This document shows, in pieces, positions 1 through 42,693 of a DNA stretch of 42,693 nt (position 1 is the stretch's first letter; every line of letters starts with the position of its first letter). This DNA is from Bacteroidales bacterium (GTDB taxonomy: Bacteria; Bacteroidota; Bacteroidia; Bacteroidales; UBA7960): assembly GCA_007125585.1 (NCBI GenBank), contig SLCY01000045.1, positions 1-42,693 on the forward strand, written 5' to 3'. The position numbers and the translations under genes were made by a program. A model generated the notes under the pieces. The model was given only the letters and a program-made list of their open reading frames with translations. It had not been told where the DNA came from and did no database searches.

Positions 1-59
1 ATTTTGTAAAAAAACAATATACAAAATGCTGGTGTACAGGAGGAACCGCTTCGCTTTCA

Positions 60-111
60 CATGATCTTTTTTCATTCGTCTGTGTGTAATTTCGAATGAA
101 AAAAAATCATG
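60..111. repeat. 19-bp inverted repeat (one mismatch) upstream of the COG2403-like GTPase gene
   Basis: CATGATCTTTTTTCATTCG (60-78) / CGAATGAAAAAAAATCATG (93-111), 14-nt loop. Confidence 0.8.
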
Positions 112-119
112 TATATTTG
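112..119 (+). promoter_or_regulatory. Bacteroidota-type -7 box TATATTTG
   Basis: Matches TAnnTTTG, about 55 nt upstream of the likely ATG at 174. Confidence 0.6.
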
Positions 120-10896: not shown

Positions 10897-11283
10897 CTAC
10901 TGTCCACTGCCGGCAGCGATGCAGCTGATCTCCACGTCGACAAATTTGGGCAACGCCCCTACCTGGACGGTTTCCCGGGCAGGAGGGTCTTCCCTGAAAA
11001 AGGAGGCATAGACCTCGTTGACCTTTGGAAAGTCATTCATGTCGCTGATAAATATACTGCATTTGACCACATGGCTGAAGTCCATGCCGGCTGCTTCCAG
11101 GATGGCCTTCATGTTTTCCATCACCAGGCGGGTCTGATCACGCACATCTCCCTTAACAAGTTCGCCGGTTGCCGGATCCATCGGGATCTGCCCGGAAACA
11201 AACAACAGGTCTTTGTGCCTTACTGCCTGGTTATACGGGCCTACAGGCTGCGCCGCTTTGTCTGTTTTGATGATCTCTTTCAT
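10897..11283 (-). CDS. ridA: RidA-family reactive intermediate/imine deaminase
   Basis: AAQPVGPYNQAV, LFVSGQIPMDPATGELV; ATG at 11283 (MKEIIKTDKA) preferred to ORF start 11382, which lies in the repeat. Confidence 0.93.
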   Translation of the reverse strand: MKEIIKTDKAAQPVGPYNQAVRHKDLLFVSGQIPMDPATGELVKGDVRDQTRLVMENMKAILEAAGMDFSHVVKCSIFISDMNDFPKVNEVYASFFREDPPARETVQVGALPKFVDVEISCIAAGSGQ

Positions 11284-11358: not shown

Positions 11359-11366
11359 CAAAAGTA
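11359..11366 (-). promoter_or_regulatory. -7 box TACTTTTG at the end of repeat copy A, directed at ridA
   Basis: Minus strand reads AAAAAAAATCATGTACTTTTGAAGG; about 76 nt upstream of the ridA ATG. Confidence 0.6.
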
Positions 11367-11542
11367 CATGATTTTTTTTCATGTACTTTTTCTTTGGCTA
11401 CCCTCCTCGTTGCCTGCTTGCAGATGGCCCGCCCTGCTGAAGTGGCCTTGTTTTTGACGCAGATCCATCAAAGGCGGAATTTGTCCCCCCACAGTCCCAG
11501 CCTTTTTATGTGTTTGCCGATGCCCACACTGTTGAAACTGTC

Positions 11543-11606
11543 TTCCGTTCCATCGCTCTTTCGTTCTTTCGCTCTATCGTTCCTTCGTTCCTTCGCTCTT
11601 CCGTCC
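11543..11606 (-). repeat. 8-nt tandem array, 8 units (copy A)
   Basis: Minus strand: GGACGGAA GAGCGAAG GAACGAAG GAACGATA GAGCGAAA GAACGAAA GAGCGATG GAACGGAA, then GACAGTTTC. Confidence 0.9.
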
Positions 11607-11689
11607 TCCATCAGCACACAAGATGCCGGAGGTTTTTAGAGGAGAAAATTAACTATTTTTGCAAGCCGACACACACCTTTTTCAGGCAG

Positions 11690-15819: not shown

Positions 15820-15958
15820 TACAATTCATTATTGGGATAAGTGCAAAGGTAATGATATGGCGCTGAAAAGACGACAGTTTTTTTAACAATTGTTTGCCGC
15901 AATAATTTATATGGATTTCTCCTGTAAAAAAACACCGGCATTTTGTGTGTTGACGTAA

Positions 15959-16030
15959 GAACGATGGAACAAAGGAACGAAAGAGCGATGGAACGACAGA
16001 ACGAAAGAACGAAAGAGCGATGGAACGGAA
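15959..16030 (+). repeat. 8-nt tandem array, 9 units (copy B)
   Basis: GAACGATG GAACAAAG GAACGAAA GAGCGATG GAACGACA GAACGAAA GAACGAAA GAGCGATG GAACGGAA, then GACAGTT. Confidence 0.93.
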
Positions 16031-16217
16031 GACAGTTAACAGTGTGGGCATCGGCAAACACGTAAAAGACCGGGCCCGTGTGGCGGATAAACACGCATTT
16101 GAAGGATCTGCGGCAAAAACAAGGCCGCTTCAGCAGGGAGGCCATCTGCAAGCAGGCAACAAGGAGGGTAGCCAAAGAAAAAGTACAGGAAAAAACAAAA
16201 ACAGGTAAAAAATCGTG

Positions 16218-16225
16218 TACTTTTG
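16218..16225 (+). promoter_or_regulatory. -7 box TACTTTTG at the end of repeat copy B, directed at ruvC
   Basis: AAAAAATCGTGTACTTTTGC; TAnnTTTG match. Confidence 0.6.
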
Positions 16226-16272
16226 CATGGTTGTGGGTTAGCGAGCAATCCGGACACATTTTATCACATTCT

Positions 16273-21636: not shown

Positions 21637-21771
21637 TGCAAGGCATTATTCACAATGAACAATTCAAGCTGCTGATTTGCCCCTGGTAATGCACCACCGG
21701 CCCCGGTACAGGGTAAAGAGGCCGTAGATTCTAGCAGGTGCATCAGAAGCGGTGATCTTTCTTTTTGGCAG

Positions 21772-21802
21772 CTTTTTCTTTGGATGGGAGCCAAAGAAAA
21801 AG
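21772..21802. repeat. 12-bp perfect-stem hairpin inside copy D
   Basis: CTTTTTCTTTGG-atgggag-CCAAAGAAAAAG. Confidence 0.9.
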
Positions 21803-21843
21803 TACATCGAACGTCAAAAAAAAGCACAAGAAAAAAATTCATG

Positions 21844-21851
21844 TATATTTG
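21844..21851 (+). promoter_or_regulatory. -7 box TATATTTG at the end of copy D, directed at the S8 protease gene
   Basis: TTCATGTATATTTGG, 36 nt before the ATG at 21887. Confidence 0.6.
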
Positions 21852-21886
21852 GACGTCCATTCTAATTATTAATCAAAACAACCATT

Positions 21887-24800
21887 ATGAAACGAAAGAT
21901 TTTTACATTGTGTTTGCTGGTCATTTTTGCAGTGACCGGTTCATCTTCTGTGTATGGCATGCATGGCAGCGAGACCTCATCGGGCAGCTCCATCACCTTA
22001 TTTGGAGAGCGCCCGCCGGTCAAATGGCAGGATGTTCCTGCTGATGCTTTTGAACCTGGGTTGATCCAGATCAAGTTTCACCCCGGCATGACGAAGACCC
22101 TTTCAAGGGGTATTTTTGAAAGCAGGGAAAATGAGGTTGTAATCATTGGACACCCTGACATTGACGCGTTGAACCAGCGATTTGGGGCAACACGCTACAA
22201 GTCCCTTATATATGGCCTGTATGACAGATCGCCCAAAAGCAGGGGCTTAGAGGCAAGACATCAGTCATGGGGCCTGCATCTGTGGTATGAGGTTCAGGTT
22301 GATCAGAGGGAGGACTTGATGACCATCATTGAGGCTTTCAGGCGACTGCCTGAAGTGGTTGTCGCAGAGCCGGTGCTTATAAAACAAAAGATTGAGCCGG
22401 TTGCTACATCAACCATCAGGGAACAGGGAGCCACAGGTGAAAAGATGAGTCCCAACGACGAGTTTTACGGCCTGCAGTATGGATTTAAAAACACCGGTCA
22501 GGATATCCGCGGTGTTACCGGCACCCCGGGTGCCGATATCAGCGCCGAGCCTGCCTGGGACATTGTGACTGGCAATCCGGATGTAATTGTTGCCGTTATC
22601 GACGGCGGCATTCAATACGATCACCCCGATCTTGCCGGCAATATCTGGCCGGGTATCGGTCCCGACGGCACCAATACCAAAGCCGATGACCATGGAACCC
22701 ATGTGGCAGGTACCGTGGCCGCCATGACCAACAACGACATCGGGGTGGCCGGATCGGCCGGAGGTGACGGAACACCCGAAAGTGGGGTGAAACTGATGAG
22801 CCTTGACCTTTTTGATGGTTCGCACGGGTTGAATACCCTGCAAATGAACATGTACGCAGCAGATAACGGAGCAGCAGTATCACAAAACAGCTGGGGGTAC
22901 CGGAATCCGGGCGTTTATAACCAGTCTGACCTCGACGGGATAGACTATTTCAATGCCCATGGTGGTGGCGAGGTGTTGAATGGTGGTCTGACCGTTTTTG
23001 CCGCCGGCAACAGCAATGACGACGGACAGTGGTACCCTGCATATTATTCCGGTTCCATGGCGGTAGCATCAACTGACAATCGCGACCAGAAGTCAAGCTT
23101 TTCCAATTATGGCTCATGGATCGACCTGTCGGCTCCCGGCACCGATATTGCCAGCACAGCATCCGGTAACAGTTATGTATGGATGTCAGGAACCTCTATG
23201 TCATGTCCGCATGTTTCAGGTATCGCCGCCCTGGTTCTTTCCTATGCACCCGGCGCGATGTCCAACCAGGACTTGTGGGATCTGCTGGTTGCCACAACAG
23301 ACAATATCGACAGTCAGAACTCCAACCATGTGGGTCTGCTGGGATCGGGCAGGTTAAATGCTTACCAGGCCATACAGGCAGCCCAGGCTTTTCTTGGTGG
23401 CGTTGAGCGGCCTGCAAGCCTCAGTGCAACCACCCTGGGTGAAGATGCCATAACACTCGCATGGCAAACCAACGCCAACAATGATGCAGTGCTTTTAGCT
23501 TTCTCTGAGAATGGAGATTTTGGAACACCCAACGACGGCACCACCTATTCTTCCGGACAAACGATTAACGGAGGAGGCACGGTACTCTACTACGGGCAGT
23601 CGCAAACCAGTATGACACACAGTGATCTCGATTATGCAAGCACCTATTACTACAGGGCATGGTCGTACGATGGAAACGAATATTCGGGACACCGGGCAGC
23701 ACAGGCAACCACCTTCCCACCAGACAACTTCCCGCTTCCATTTACAGAGAGTTTTGACGATTCGCCGGAAATTCCCCTGGGCTGGTCAACATACGGGACC
23801 GCTGAATGGTCAGTAGGCACCTTTTCCAACGGTGTGACCGGAACCACAGGCAATTATGCATATGTGGAAATGAGCGGCAACACGGCCAGGACAGCACACC
23901 TCGAAAGTCCGAACCTTGTTTTCAGTGATTTCACCGATATACGCCTGGAATTTGAGCACCGTTACAACCATGAGAGAAGCACAGCCATCCTGGCCTACAG
24001 CCTCAATGACGGAGGCAGCTGGACAACCATTCAGGCATGGTCGGGCAATACCGGAACCGCGAGTTTCGATCAGGTCATCGGTGAACTGGCCGGGCAACCC
24101 AATGTAAGGTTCCGCTGGACATTGGCATTTGAAGGTGGTGGACCACCTCATAGGTCAAGAAGCTGGAGCATCGATGATGTATCTGTTACCGGTACAACGG
24201 CAGGGACAACCTATACCATCACAGCGACGGCCGGAACCGGAGGTTCAATCAACCCGGCGGGTAACATTACCGTGGCCGAGGGGGACAATCAAAGTTTCAG
24301 CATCACCCCTGCAGATGGATTTGAAATCGAAGATGTGGTGGTCGACGACACCAGCGTGGGGGCAGTCACGGAATATACGTTCAGCAACGTTACAGCCGAC
24401 CACACCATTCACGCCACCTTCGAAGAAGTCCCTGTGATCACCTTCACCATCCTGGCATCGGCCGGCGACGGGGGCAGCATCAGTCCTTCGGGAACCATCA
24501 CCGTGGCAGAAGGTGATGACCAAAGCTTTTCCATTACTGCCGACAGTGGTTTTGAAATTGCTGATGTAGTTGTGGATGGTAACAGTGTGGGTGCTGTCAC
24601 AGCCTATACATTTAACAATGTTACAGCCGATCACACCATCCATGCTGCTTTTGAAACAGCACCGGAAGATCCGTGTCTGATCACCTCATTACCCTACCTG
24701 CAAGACTTTGACGCTGCAGCAGCCATTCCGGAATGCTGGGAAAGTGTGACCAATGAAGGTGATGTTGCATGGCAGGTGGGTACTTTCAACGGCGGTTTGA

Positions 24801-25477
24801 GCGGCACCACTGGTAATTATGCCTATTTCTATTACCAGGGTAACCGGGGCAGAAACGCTGACCTGATCAGCCAGCCCTTCGATTTTAGCGATTATATAGA
24901 CATCAACCTGGCATTTACCCATTACCATGTGGCAAGCCGGAGTTCGGTCGGACTCTATTACAGCACCGACGGCGGCAATAACTGGAACACGATACAGACC
25001 TGGAGCAGCAGCACCAGCAATCCGGCAAGCTTCAGTCAAAGTCTGCCCGCACTGGCAGGCGAGCAGCATGTGATCTTCCGCTGGAACATGAATTATCCCG
25101 GTGGCGGTCCGCCAAGGGAGTCCAGAAGCTGGAGTGTGGATGATATTGTCGTAAATGGAGCAACTACTCAGGGCGGAGATGAAGCACCTGAGCCTTTAGC
25201 CGGGGACACGGACATTTCAGAACTCAGTGATTTGGAAATGATCTGCTTCCCGAATCCTGCAACCGATCAGGTGAACATCTCTTTCAACCGTGATGTGAAA
25301 AATGGAACGATCATTTTTACCGATATCTCAGGAAGAAATGTATATCAACTGACCATAACGGAACTGTCTGAACAGGAAACTGTCAGCATCAATACAGGCA
25401 ACTGGCCCGGTGGACTTTTTGTGGTCCGTCTGATCACCAACGATGGAACAACCACGCAGATCATTGCCATAAAATAA
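21887..25477 (+). CDS. Secreted S8 (subtilisin-like) serine protease, multidomain, T9SS type A sorting tail
   Basis: Signal peptide; VIVAVIDGGIQYDHPD, DDHGTHVAGTVAA, MSGTSMSCPHVSGIAAL; FN3-like, two MAM/jelly-roll-like and two InlB-type repeat modules; C-terminal FPNPATDQVNI... Confidence 0.95.
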   Translation: MKRKIFTLCLLVIFAVTGSSSVYGMHGSETSSGSSITLFGERPPVKWQDVPADAFEPGLIQIKFHPGMTKTLSRGIFESRENEVVIIGHPDIDALNQRFGATRYKSLIYGLYDRSPKSRGLEARHQSWGLHLWYEVQVDQREDLMTIIEAFRRLPEVVVAEPVLIKQKIEPVATSTIREQGATGEKMSPNDEFYGLQYGFKNTGQDIRGVTGTPGADISAEPAWDIVTGNPDVIVAVIDGGIQYDHPDLAGNIWPGIGPDGTNTKADDHGTHVAGTVAAMTNNDIGVAGSAGGDGTPESGVKLMSLDLFDGSHGLNTLQMNMYAADNGAAVSQNSWGYRNPGVYNQSDLDGIDYFNAHGGGEVLNGGLTVFAAGNSNDDGQWYPAYYSGSMAVASTDNRDQKSSFSNYGSWIDLSAPGTDIASTASGNSYVWMSGTSMSCPHVSGIAALVLSYAPGAMSNQDLWDLLVATTDNIDSQNSNHVGLLGSGRLNAYQAIQAAQAFLGGVERPASLSATTLGEDAITLAWQTNANNDAVLLAFSENGDFGTPNDGTTYSSGQTINGGGTVLYYGQSQTSMTHSDLDYASTYYYRAWSYDGNEYSGHRAAQATTFPPDNFPLPFTESFDDSPEIPLGWSTYGTAEWSVGTFSNGVTGTTGNYAYVEMSGNTARTAHLESPNLVFSDFTDIRLEFEHRYNHERSTAILAYSLNDGGSWTTIQAWSGNTGTASFDQVIGELAGQPNVRFRWTLAFEGGGPPHRSRSWSIDDVSVTGTTAGTTYTITATAGTGGSINPAGNITVAEGDNQSFSITPADGFEIEDVVVDDTSVGAVTEYTFSNVTADHTIHATFEEVPVITFTILASAGDGGSISPSGTITVAEGDDQSFSITADSGFEIADVVVDGNSVGAVTAYTFNNVTADHTIHAAFETAPEDPCLITSLPYLQDFDAAAAIPECWESVTNEGDVAWQVGTFNGGLSGTTGNYAYFYYQGNRGRNADLISQPFDFSDYIDINLAFTHYHVASRSSVGLYYSTDGGNNWNTIQTWSSSTSNPASFSQSLPALAGEQHVIFRWNMNYPGGGPPRESRSWSVDDIVVNGATTQGGDEAPEPLAGDTDISELSDLEMICFPNPATDQVNISFNRDVKNGTIIFTDISGRNVYQLTITELSEQETVSINTGNWPGGLFVVRLITNDGTTTQIIAIK
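24213..24656 (+). repeat. Tandem duplicated ~70 aa module within the S8 protease
   Basis: YTITATAGTGGSINPAGNITVAEGDNQSFSITPADGFEIEDVVVDDTSVGAVTEYTFSNVTADHTIHATFE and TFTILASAGDGGSISPSGTITVAEGDDQSFSITADSGFEIADVVVDGNSVGAVTAYTFNNVTADHTIHAAFE. Confidence 0.92.
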
Positions 25478-25511
25478 GCGAGAACAATTTTTGTTTTCGC
25501 ATGCATATGCA

Positions 25512-25555
25512 CTGAATGAGCGAGGCTGCCCATTTTGGCAGCCTCGCTCATTCAG
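25512..25555. terminator. 19-bp perfect hairpin downstream of the S8 protease gene; terminator-like but without a T-tract
   Basis: CTGAATGAGCGAGGCTGCC-catttt-GGCAGCCTCGCTCATTCAG. Confidence 0.6.
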
Positions 25556-25637
25556 CGAAATATGGAGTACCATGGCCAGATTGAAATGCCGGCCGGATAG
25601 GCCTGCGCAGACTGAAGTGGCCGTGGTTTTTAGCAGA

Positions 25638-25750
25638 TGCATCAGAAGCGGTGATCTTTCTTTTTGGCAGCTTTTTCTTTGGATGGGAGCCAAAGAAAAA
25701 GTACATCGAACGTCAAAAAAAAGCACAAGAAAAAAAATCATGTATATTTG
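25638..25750 (+). repeat. 113 bp direct repeat, copy E, upstream of lpdA
   Basis: 112/113 identical to 21739-21851; contains the same hairpin at 25671-25701. Confidence 0.95.
25743..25750 (+). promoter_or_regulatory. -7 box TATATTTG at the end of copy E, directed at lpdA
   Basis: AAAAAAAATCATGTATATTTGAC; about 50 nt before the ATG at 25800. Confidence 0.6.
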
Positions 25751-25799
25751 ACTTGTCTTACGACATTCCGACATTTTAATGAACATAAAACCAGATGAC

Positions 25800-42429: not shown

Positions 42430-42569
42430 CTCCGGGACAATTTGTTTGACGAATATACCGAAAATAAATCAGCGTTTCAACCCAAAACAAGCTTGCCCCC
42501 CACGCAACGCTTTTGCCATTGTTTTGTCCACCGGAACAAAACCGTTGCCCTTATCCAGGTGGGGAAATC

Positions 42570-42693
42570 TGCAAAAAAGCCCCATCATCTTGTATGTTGA
42601 CAGATGAACGACGGAACGAAGGAACGAAAGACAGTTTCAACAGTGTGGGCAACTGCAAACATGTAAAAGACCGGCCCTGTGGGGGGATAAATC
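42570..42693 (+). repeat. Dispersed repeat copy C, truncated by the window end
   Basis: CATCTTGTATGTTGAC, 8-mer array, GACAGTTTCAACAGTGTGGGCAACTGCAAACATGTAAAAGACCGGCCCTGTGGGGGGATAAAT matches copies A and B. Confidence 0.85.
42606..42629 (+). repeat. 8-nt tandem array, 3 units (copy C)
   Basis: GAACGACG GAACGAAG GAACGAAA then GACAGTT. Confidence 0.85.

Follow-up and report, generated by a model that had tools for sequence, protein, structure and literature searches.

Why does a stretch of about 300 bp recur between genes in the 42,693-nucleotide Bacteroidales contig analysed here (the window), and what kind of DNA is it? We consider it likely that its three copies (A, B and C) are decayed composites belonging to a family of small mobile elements in Bacteroidales, elements that are non-autonomous, target promoters and replace them, and the best reading is that the family is new, being previously uncatalogued and outside the named families tested. 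An initial annotation had described a dispersed repeat of ~300 bp and suggested a non-autonomous or a structured intergenic element. The repeat is real: A and B, on opposite strands, align end to end as described there, with 248 of 280 aligned positions identical (89%; by blastn, 84% over 285 columns, E ~1e-77), all the motifs quoted for the copies are present in the sequence, and we likewise found no typical transposase ORF in the copies. Copy C does repeat the left part and run off the window; as the window is a complete contig (G000:C116), it stops at 42693. The three copies listed in that annotation hold, but three further pieces had been overlooked, giving the following set:

11360-11644, minus strand: copy A, a composite of left end, 8-nt array, truncated K hairpin element and right end with candidate promoter, lying 5' of a RidA/L-PSP gene (~10899-11283, minus strand; Pfam Ribonuc_L-PSP)
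15919-16224, plus strand: copy B, the same composite as A, lying 5' of ruvC (start ~16273; Pfam RuvC)
42569-42693, plus strand: copy C, with the left end (left third), a short 8-nt array and the beginning of a 70-nt unit
1-119, plus strand: two-hairpin parent form (type III), left side cut by the contig end, right end TATATTTG
21703-21851, plus strand: right part of a K/type I copy with the candidate promoter end TATATTTG, 35 bp 5' of an S8-like protease gene (21887)
25588-25750, plus strand: right part of a K/type I copy with the candidate promoter end TATATTTG, 28 bp 5' of a gene for an FAD-dependent pyridine nucleotide-disulphide oxidoreductase (start 25779; Pfam)

The limits of A and B were set by empty sites in sister species and by sequence comparison. 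The piece at 1-119 matched the covariance model of the family with 124.7 bits (E 1.8e-26, model positions 22-137) and faces a gene starting at ~174. In the carrier genome (G000; 2.57 Mb in 120 contigs, 96.5% complete), there were at least 62 matches to copy B at E <= 0.001, at least 44 to the right end and at least 41 to left ends, far more than chance would produce and all of them lower bounds since the searches score a limited number of candidates. Many family matches lie at contig ends, as expected because repeats break assembly. Outcomes that the initial annotation had named as refuting were thus checked and did not occur: copies abound elsewhere in the genome, and no Rfam family reached its gathering score in the window. 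In related loci, the Rfam search yielded a tRNA elsewhere and otherwise just miRNA-like hairpin matches below threshold.

The repeat of ~300 bp turned out not to be the basic unit, as A and B are composites of three nested parts. With interior insertions removed, the parent unit (type III) is 137 bp long and consists, in order, of a left hairpin starting at base 1 (stem ~21 bp), the motif GAACCGCTTCGCTTTC, a right hairpin (~17 bp) with the loop TCTGTGTGTAATTT, and the end CATGTAnnTTT. A long form of 230 bp (L208, L191, L166) carries additional stem-loops and a terminator-like stem followed by T's, 5' of the right hairpin. In a MAFFT alignment of 20 copies (A1), 93.5% of cells paired, compared to 41-55% in slid controls. 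In a model-based alignment of 29 copies that included other families (A2), two-sided changes occurred at 25 of 38 pairs, 94.4% were paired compared to 41-52% when slid, and 0 of 500 shuffles reached any of the measures; the A2 pair counts lean towards structure because this alignment was built with the model itself, and A1 is therefore the cleaner test, weaker in outcome and of the same sign. Folding of the parent DNA gave z-scores of -5.8 to -7.7. Compensatory changes maintain the hairpin pairing in the parent element, and the left hairpin and motif are conserved to the same degree as the right hairpin. The earlier suggestion of a structured element thus applies to the parent, with its two covarying hairpins, but not to copy B as it stands, which folds like shuffled DNA (z -0.09); the idea that A and B are themselves structured was rejected. 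Comparison of the left end CTCCTGTAAAA with the reverse complement of the right end AAATATACATG gave no match, i.e., no terminal inverted repeats. Where two right hairpins enclose one left hairpin (the R-L-R arrangement; L168, L172, L184, L044, L180, L254), the two R copies differed locally very little or not at all, as though they had been duplicated jointly or homogenised, a comparison whose permutation test mixes species. At L160 (G013:C50), the left-flanking right hairpin had an inverted loop, ACACACAGACGCATGAAAAAAATTCATG, as if the palindrome had been flipped.

All fetched copies shared a single left end, CTCCTGTAAAAAACCACCATCATTTTGTGTG, followed by alternative interiors. The type I interior, found in A, B and C, comprises an 8-nt minisatellite (GGAACGAA/GGAACGAT), GACAGTTTCAACAGTGTGGGCATCTGCAAACA, one to several 70-nt units and then the structured element K, while type II comprises an 8-nt array followed by an array similar to TTTAAACC and by a conserved stretch whose last bases are AACGACCGGGTGAAAGACCTTGAG. 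K is a hairpin of ~175 nt with a terminal hairpin (TGTACTTTTTCTTTGG/CCAAAGAAAAAGTACA) and a fold of about -75 to -106 kcal/mol. In A and B, the interior parts are placed as follows, the K remnant of A being judged against full-length K in L033, L041, L123 and L124:

11552-11609, minus strand: 8-nt minisatellite of A
11382-11478, minus strand: nested K remnant of A, 5' arm retained and 3' arm of the large hairpin deleted
15957-16033, plus strand: 8-nt minisatellite of B
16094-16187, plus strand: nested K remnant of B

The joint of the 3'-arm deletion is apparently the same in A and B, which is consistent with the composite moving as a unit.

Empty sites in relatives, proposed earlier as a check, were found in sister species and located the insertion point. 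The site of A is element-free there (TACGTAATTTTG / TAATTAATTTTG), and at least six sister species are empty at this locus, with TAATTTTG-type boxes at the orthologous intergenic place. For ruvC, empty sites were found in G015 and G012, whose orthologous promoters read CATAGCTTTG, a fit less clean than at A. At an ECF sigma gene, the element is missing in G015, G018 and G013, and the empty GGTATTTTTGTCCCTATG corresponds to the filled GGTATTTTT/element TATATTT/GTTCCCATG (G015, GATTATGGTATTTTTGTCCCTATG; carrier genome, GATTATGGTATTTTT, then the element ending in TATATTT, then GTTCCCATG); the TATTTTT on the left is native, the TATATTT on the right is the element consensus, and the target G is present once. 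A deoxynucleoside kinase gene is empty in G018, G008, G015 and G005, with AAAAAGAAAATGTATTTTTGCTTC in G018 and AAAAAGAAAATGTATATTT, the element and GTCTTG in the carrier genome. Carbamate kinase and HPT loci were dropped as empty sites since their promoters were too diverged for placing the junction. The empty-site alignments are clear at A, sigma and kinase and weaker at B, because the sister species are ~70-80% identical. Target-site duplications were looked for at the empty sites, and none was seen at the ECF sigma locus or locus A. TAnnTTTG is the -7 box consensus of the Bacteroidota primary sigma factor (PMC7366714), and the empty sites therefore place the insertion between the TAnnTTT and the G of a -7 box, with no duplication seen. 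In agreement, 17 of 21 solo copies have TAnnTTT directly before their left end, compared to 3 of 798 positions of the same flanks; copy C and a few others have a left flank without a clear -7 box. The boxes at the two ends of A and B are:

11645-11651, minus strand: native -7 box remnant (TAATTTT) of A, adjoining its left end
15912-15918, plus strand: probable native ruvC -7 box remnant (TGGATTT) at the left junction of B
11359-11366, minus strand: right end of A, TACTTTTG, a candidate for the new -7 box by the TAnnTTTG consensus (PMC7366714)
16218-16225, plus strand: right end of B, TACTTTTG, a candidate for the new -7 box of ruvC, its last base, G, lying outside the element

Because native promoters could share the right-end consensus, the mobile part of the right end is delimited from the sigma and kinase loci. 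The many copies, the empty sites in sister species and the internally deleted composite common to A and B together support the earlier proposal of a dispersed non-autonomous element.

At the right end, the TAnnTTT of the element itself recreates TAnnTTTG at the usual distance from a gene, the ATG mostly lying 20-60 bp past the new box. Judging from this consensus and distance, the right end is a candidate outward promoter of the following gene. A same-direction gene came next in 42 of the 45 right ends with a scorable neighbour (one-sided binomial ~4e-10), and the orientation of left neighbours was 17:17. ORF-calling artefacts or a native promoter probably account for some of the three exceptions. 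The true unit, the candidate right-end promoter and the insertion point in the -7 box are all points that the initial annotation did not contain.

With the covariance model, the element was found in 19 of 394 Bacteroidales genomes. Strong matches (~60 bits or more) came from the genus of the window and four other families (f38, f98, f49, f111), with weaker ones elsewhere, and the parent architecture is present in at least five Bacteroidales families. Between groups, the stem sequences differ almost entirely, while the motif and ends are kept (f38, f98 and f49 with the same architecture). The motif GAACCGCTTCGCTTT occurs 25 times in the carrier genome, where the backwards-read pattern occurs 0 times, and at most once in each of 397 other genomes of the phylum, the four inspected hits lying in unrelated contexts. 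Among named genomes, the motif-based pattern was found in Bacteroidales MAGs from soda-lake sediment only; the exact A/B core had no match there, and the plasmid and phage collections gave none either. A diverged subfamily (L261, L262, L263 and L265, in f111, f66, f15 and f117) has the motif ACCGCTTCGCTTTC or a near variant and the ends TTCATTTC/TTCGTTTC, and the copies seen were not obviously 5' of a co-directional gene.

A promoter-targeting mobile element was weighed against four other origins. The right hairpin covers the -33 to -7 region of a promoter, tandem units exist, and right-hairpin copies flanking one left hairpin are closely similar (mean 0.97; 0 of 2002 permutations, in the test that mixes species), all of which would suit an immobile, ancient cis-regulatory promoter palindrome (an operator) kept by selection and multiplied by ordinary duplication and gene conversion. 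We nevertheless find this improbable, given that the same genes have plain promoters in sister species, that the genes downstream of copies are functionally unrelated, that whole composites (A, B) recur at unrelated genes, and that conservation is no lower in the left hairpin and motif than in the right hairpin. An origin as a non-autonomous element of IS200/IS605 type (PATE) or as a REP/RAYT repeat, moved by a Y1 HUH transposase, is suggested by the hairpin at both ends, by insertion 3' of a short fixed motif, TAnnTTT on the left, that is repeated at the right end, and by the one-sidedness of this target with no duplication seen. This origin is unlikely, as Y1_Tnp (PF01797) is absent from G000 (96.5% complete), G002, G009, G017, G073, G352, G414, G184 and G278, in a search that took in five f38 genomes (>=90% complete) with several copies, and the Y1 hits of genus genomes, inspected by eye, have different ends. 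IS605 ends have a 5' guide, and a left hairpin that begins from base 1 leaves no space for a guide of this type. The element also differs from PATEs and REP/RAYT repeats in that most carriers lack the Y1 transposase, the target is a promoter box, a candidate promoter is supplied, and the left hairpin begins at the terminus.

The promoter-like box at the right end also brings to mind a non-autonomous element of IS110 type, in which a circle-junction promoter drives a bridge-RNA-like transcript from the left end; transcription across a right-left junction would enter the structured left region, and the long form, with its terminator-like end, looks similar to a small RNA. We hold this to be very unlikely, since PF01548 was not found in G000, G002, G009, G013, G017, G073, G352, G184, G278 and G234 and was present in 3 of 17 genomes searched. 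Extremely unlikely, finally, is a classical MITE of a DDE transposase, such as BrickBuilt or Correia. The family does share small size, an intergenic location, a candidate promoter and internal tandem repeats with what was reported for BrickBuilt (PMC4596501), but its two ends do not form an inverted repeat, and no target duplication was seen at its empty sites.

How a promoter-replacing mobile element of this kind might work can be outlined from its ends. Insertion may be a conservative, single-strand-type reaction in which the TAYATTT end of the element is joined to a TAnnTTT target, perhaps on the non-template strand exposed in an open promoter and perhaps by an enzyme acting in trans. In the open promoter complex, the non-template strand is single-stranded exactly at the -7 region, which makes insertion into the transcription bubble an attractive idea; because the insertion point is where RNA polymerase melts DNA, target choice by the bubble is directly testable. 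Outside tandem copies, a circular junction of the element would read TATATTT-CTCCTGTA. Transcription into the element may still start from the native -7 box, which has become TAnnTTTC, and that of the downstream gene would start from the candidate right-end promoter. Insertion would in that case be tolerated, which would explain accumulation 5' of housekeeping genes such as ruvC. The interior would later have gained the 8-nt minisatellite, the 70-nt tandem unit, the TTTAAACC array or the large-hairpin K, giving the 300-bp mosaics. We put forward more tentatively, as possible but rather doubtful, a whole element class that hits active promoters through their single-stranded -7 region, with a hairpin-ended strand inserted after TAnnTTT, brings along both a replacement promoter and a gene for a structured RNA whose end resembles a terminator, and owes its movement to an enzyme outside the known Y1 HUH and IS110 transposases. 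Most carriers lack the transposases that usually handle hairpin ends, which points to a mobilising enzyme so far unrecognised. A long autonomous copy would show as a right end far from the motif, and a scan of every motif occurrence in the retrieved loci found none; a multicopy gene for the mobilising enzyme could be hidden by MAG fragmentation.

By entering a -7 box and bringing a new one, such an element would have a precise way for selfish DNA to inhabit host promoters harmlessly. Elements could then pile up in a genome without silencing genes, and they would rewire the expression of dozens of genes (ruvC, ridA, a sigma factor and metabolic genes), in one step each. BOX elements of Streptococcus pneumoniae are small, dispersed and modular, with a variable number of middle units. 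The element here is likewise a modular repeat with a variable middle-unit number, but it is unrelated to BOX in sequence, and BOX has no known promoter-box target. The closest in effect are Correia and BrickBuilt, both promoter-bearing intergenic MITEs. Correia elements have terminal inverted repeats and a TA target duplication. They are small, non-autonomous and intergenic, often lie just 5' of genes and carry outward promoters (PMC10969869). Our element resembles these Neisseria repeats in being small, non-autonomous, intergenic and gene-proximal, with a candidate outward promoter, but has two separate hairpins, no terminal inverted repeat and no duplication seen, and is inserted inside the -7 box with its orientation fixed relative to the gene. 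BrickBuilt, from Porphyromonas gingivalis (also Bacteroidales), consists of a leader, a tandem repeat array and a tail and had promoter activity in E. coli (PMC4596501). A composite intergenic build with a tandem repeat array is common to both, but the IS5-type terminal inverted repeats (GAGACCTTCGCA) and the 23-nt repeat of BrickBuilt have no counterpart here.

Parts of the mosaics were also seen by themselves. Stand-alone K occurs in sister species at L123 (G010:C83) and L124 (G001:C135), where it has the TGTACTTTTTCTTTGG terminal hairpin and the entire 228 nt fold with -99 to -106 kcal/mol; in G001, it lies 5' of a polA-like gene. K looks like a second dispersed family in its own right. Intergenic arrays of the 8-nt unit and other short purine-rich tandem repeats were found without the hairpin element at L064, L111, L113, L115 (G009) and L125 (G049), so the minisatellite seems to spread independently. 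Its 8-nt units are stop-free in all six frames, and at L063 (G000:C96:5000-8500, minus strand, ~1427-1606) the minisatellite lies in frame within a 414-aa NAD-dependent epimerase-like ORF, adding roughly 75 residues (ERKNDGTTERWNDG...). Finally, at 21637-25778 of the window, the gene for the 1196-aa S8-like protease (21887-25477) stands between genes that are directly adjacent in eight sister-species loci, with directly repeated K right ends on both of its sides (21703-21851 and 25588-25750).
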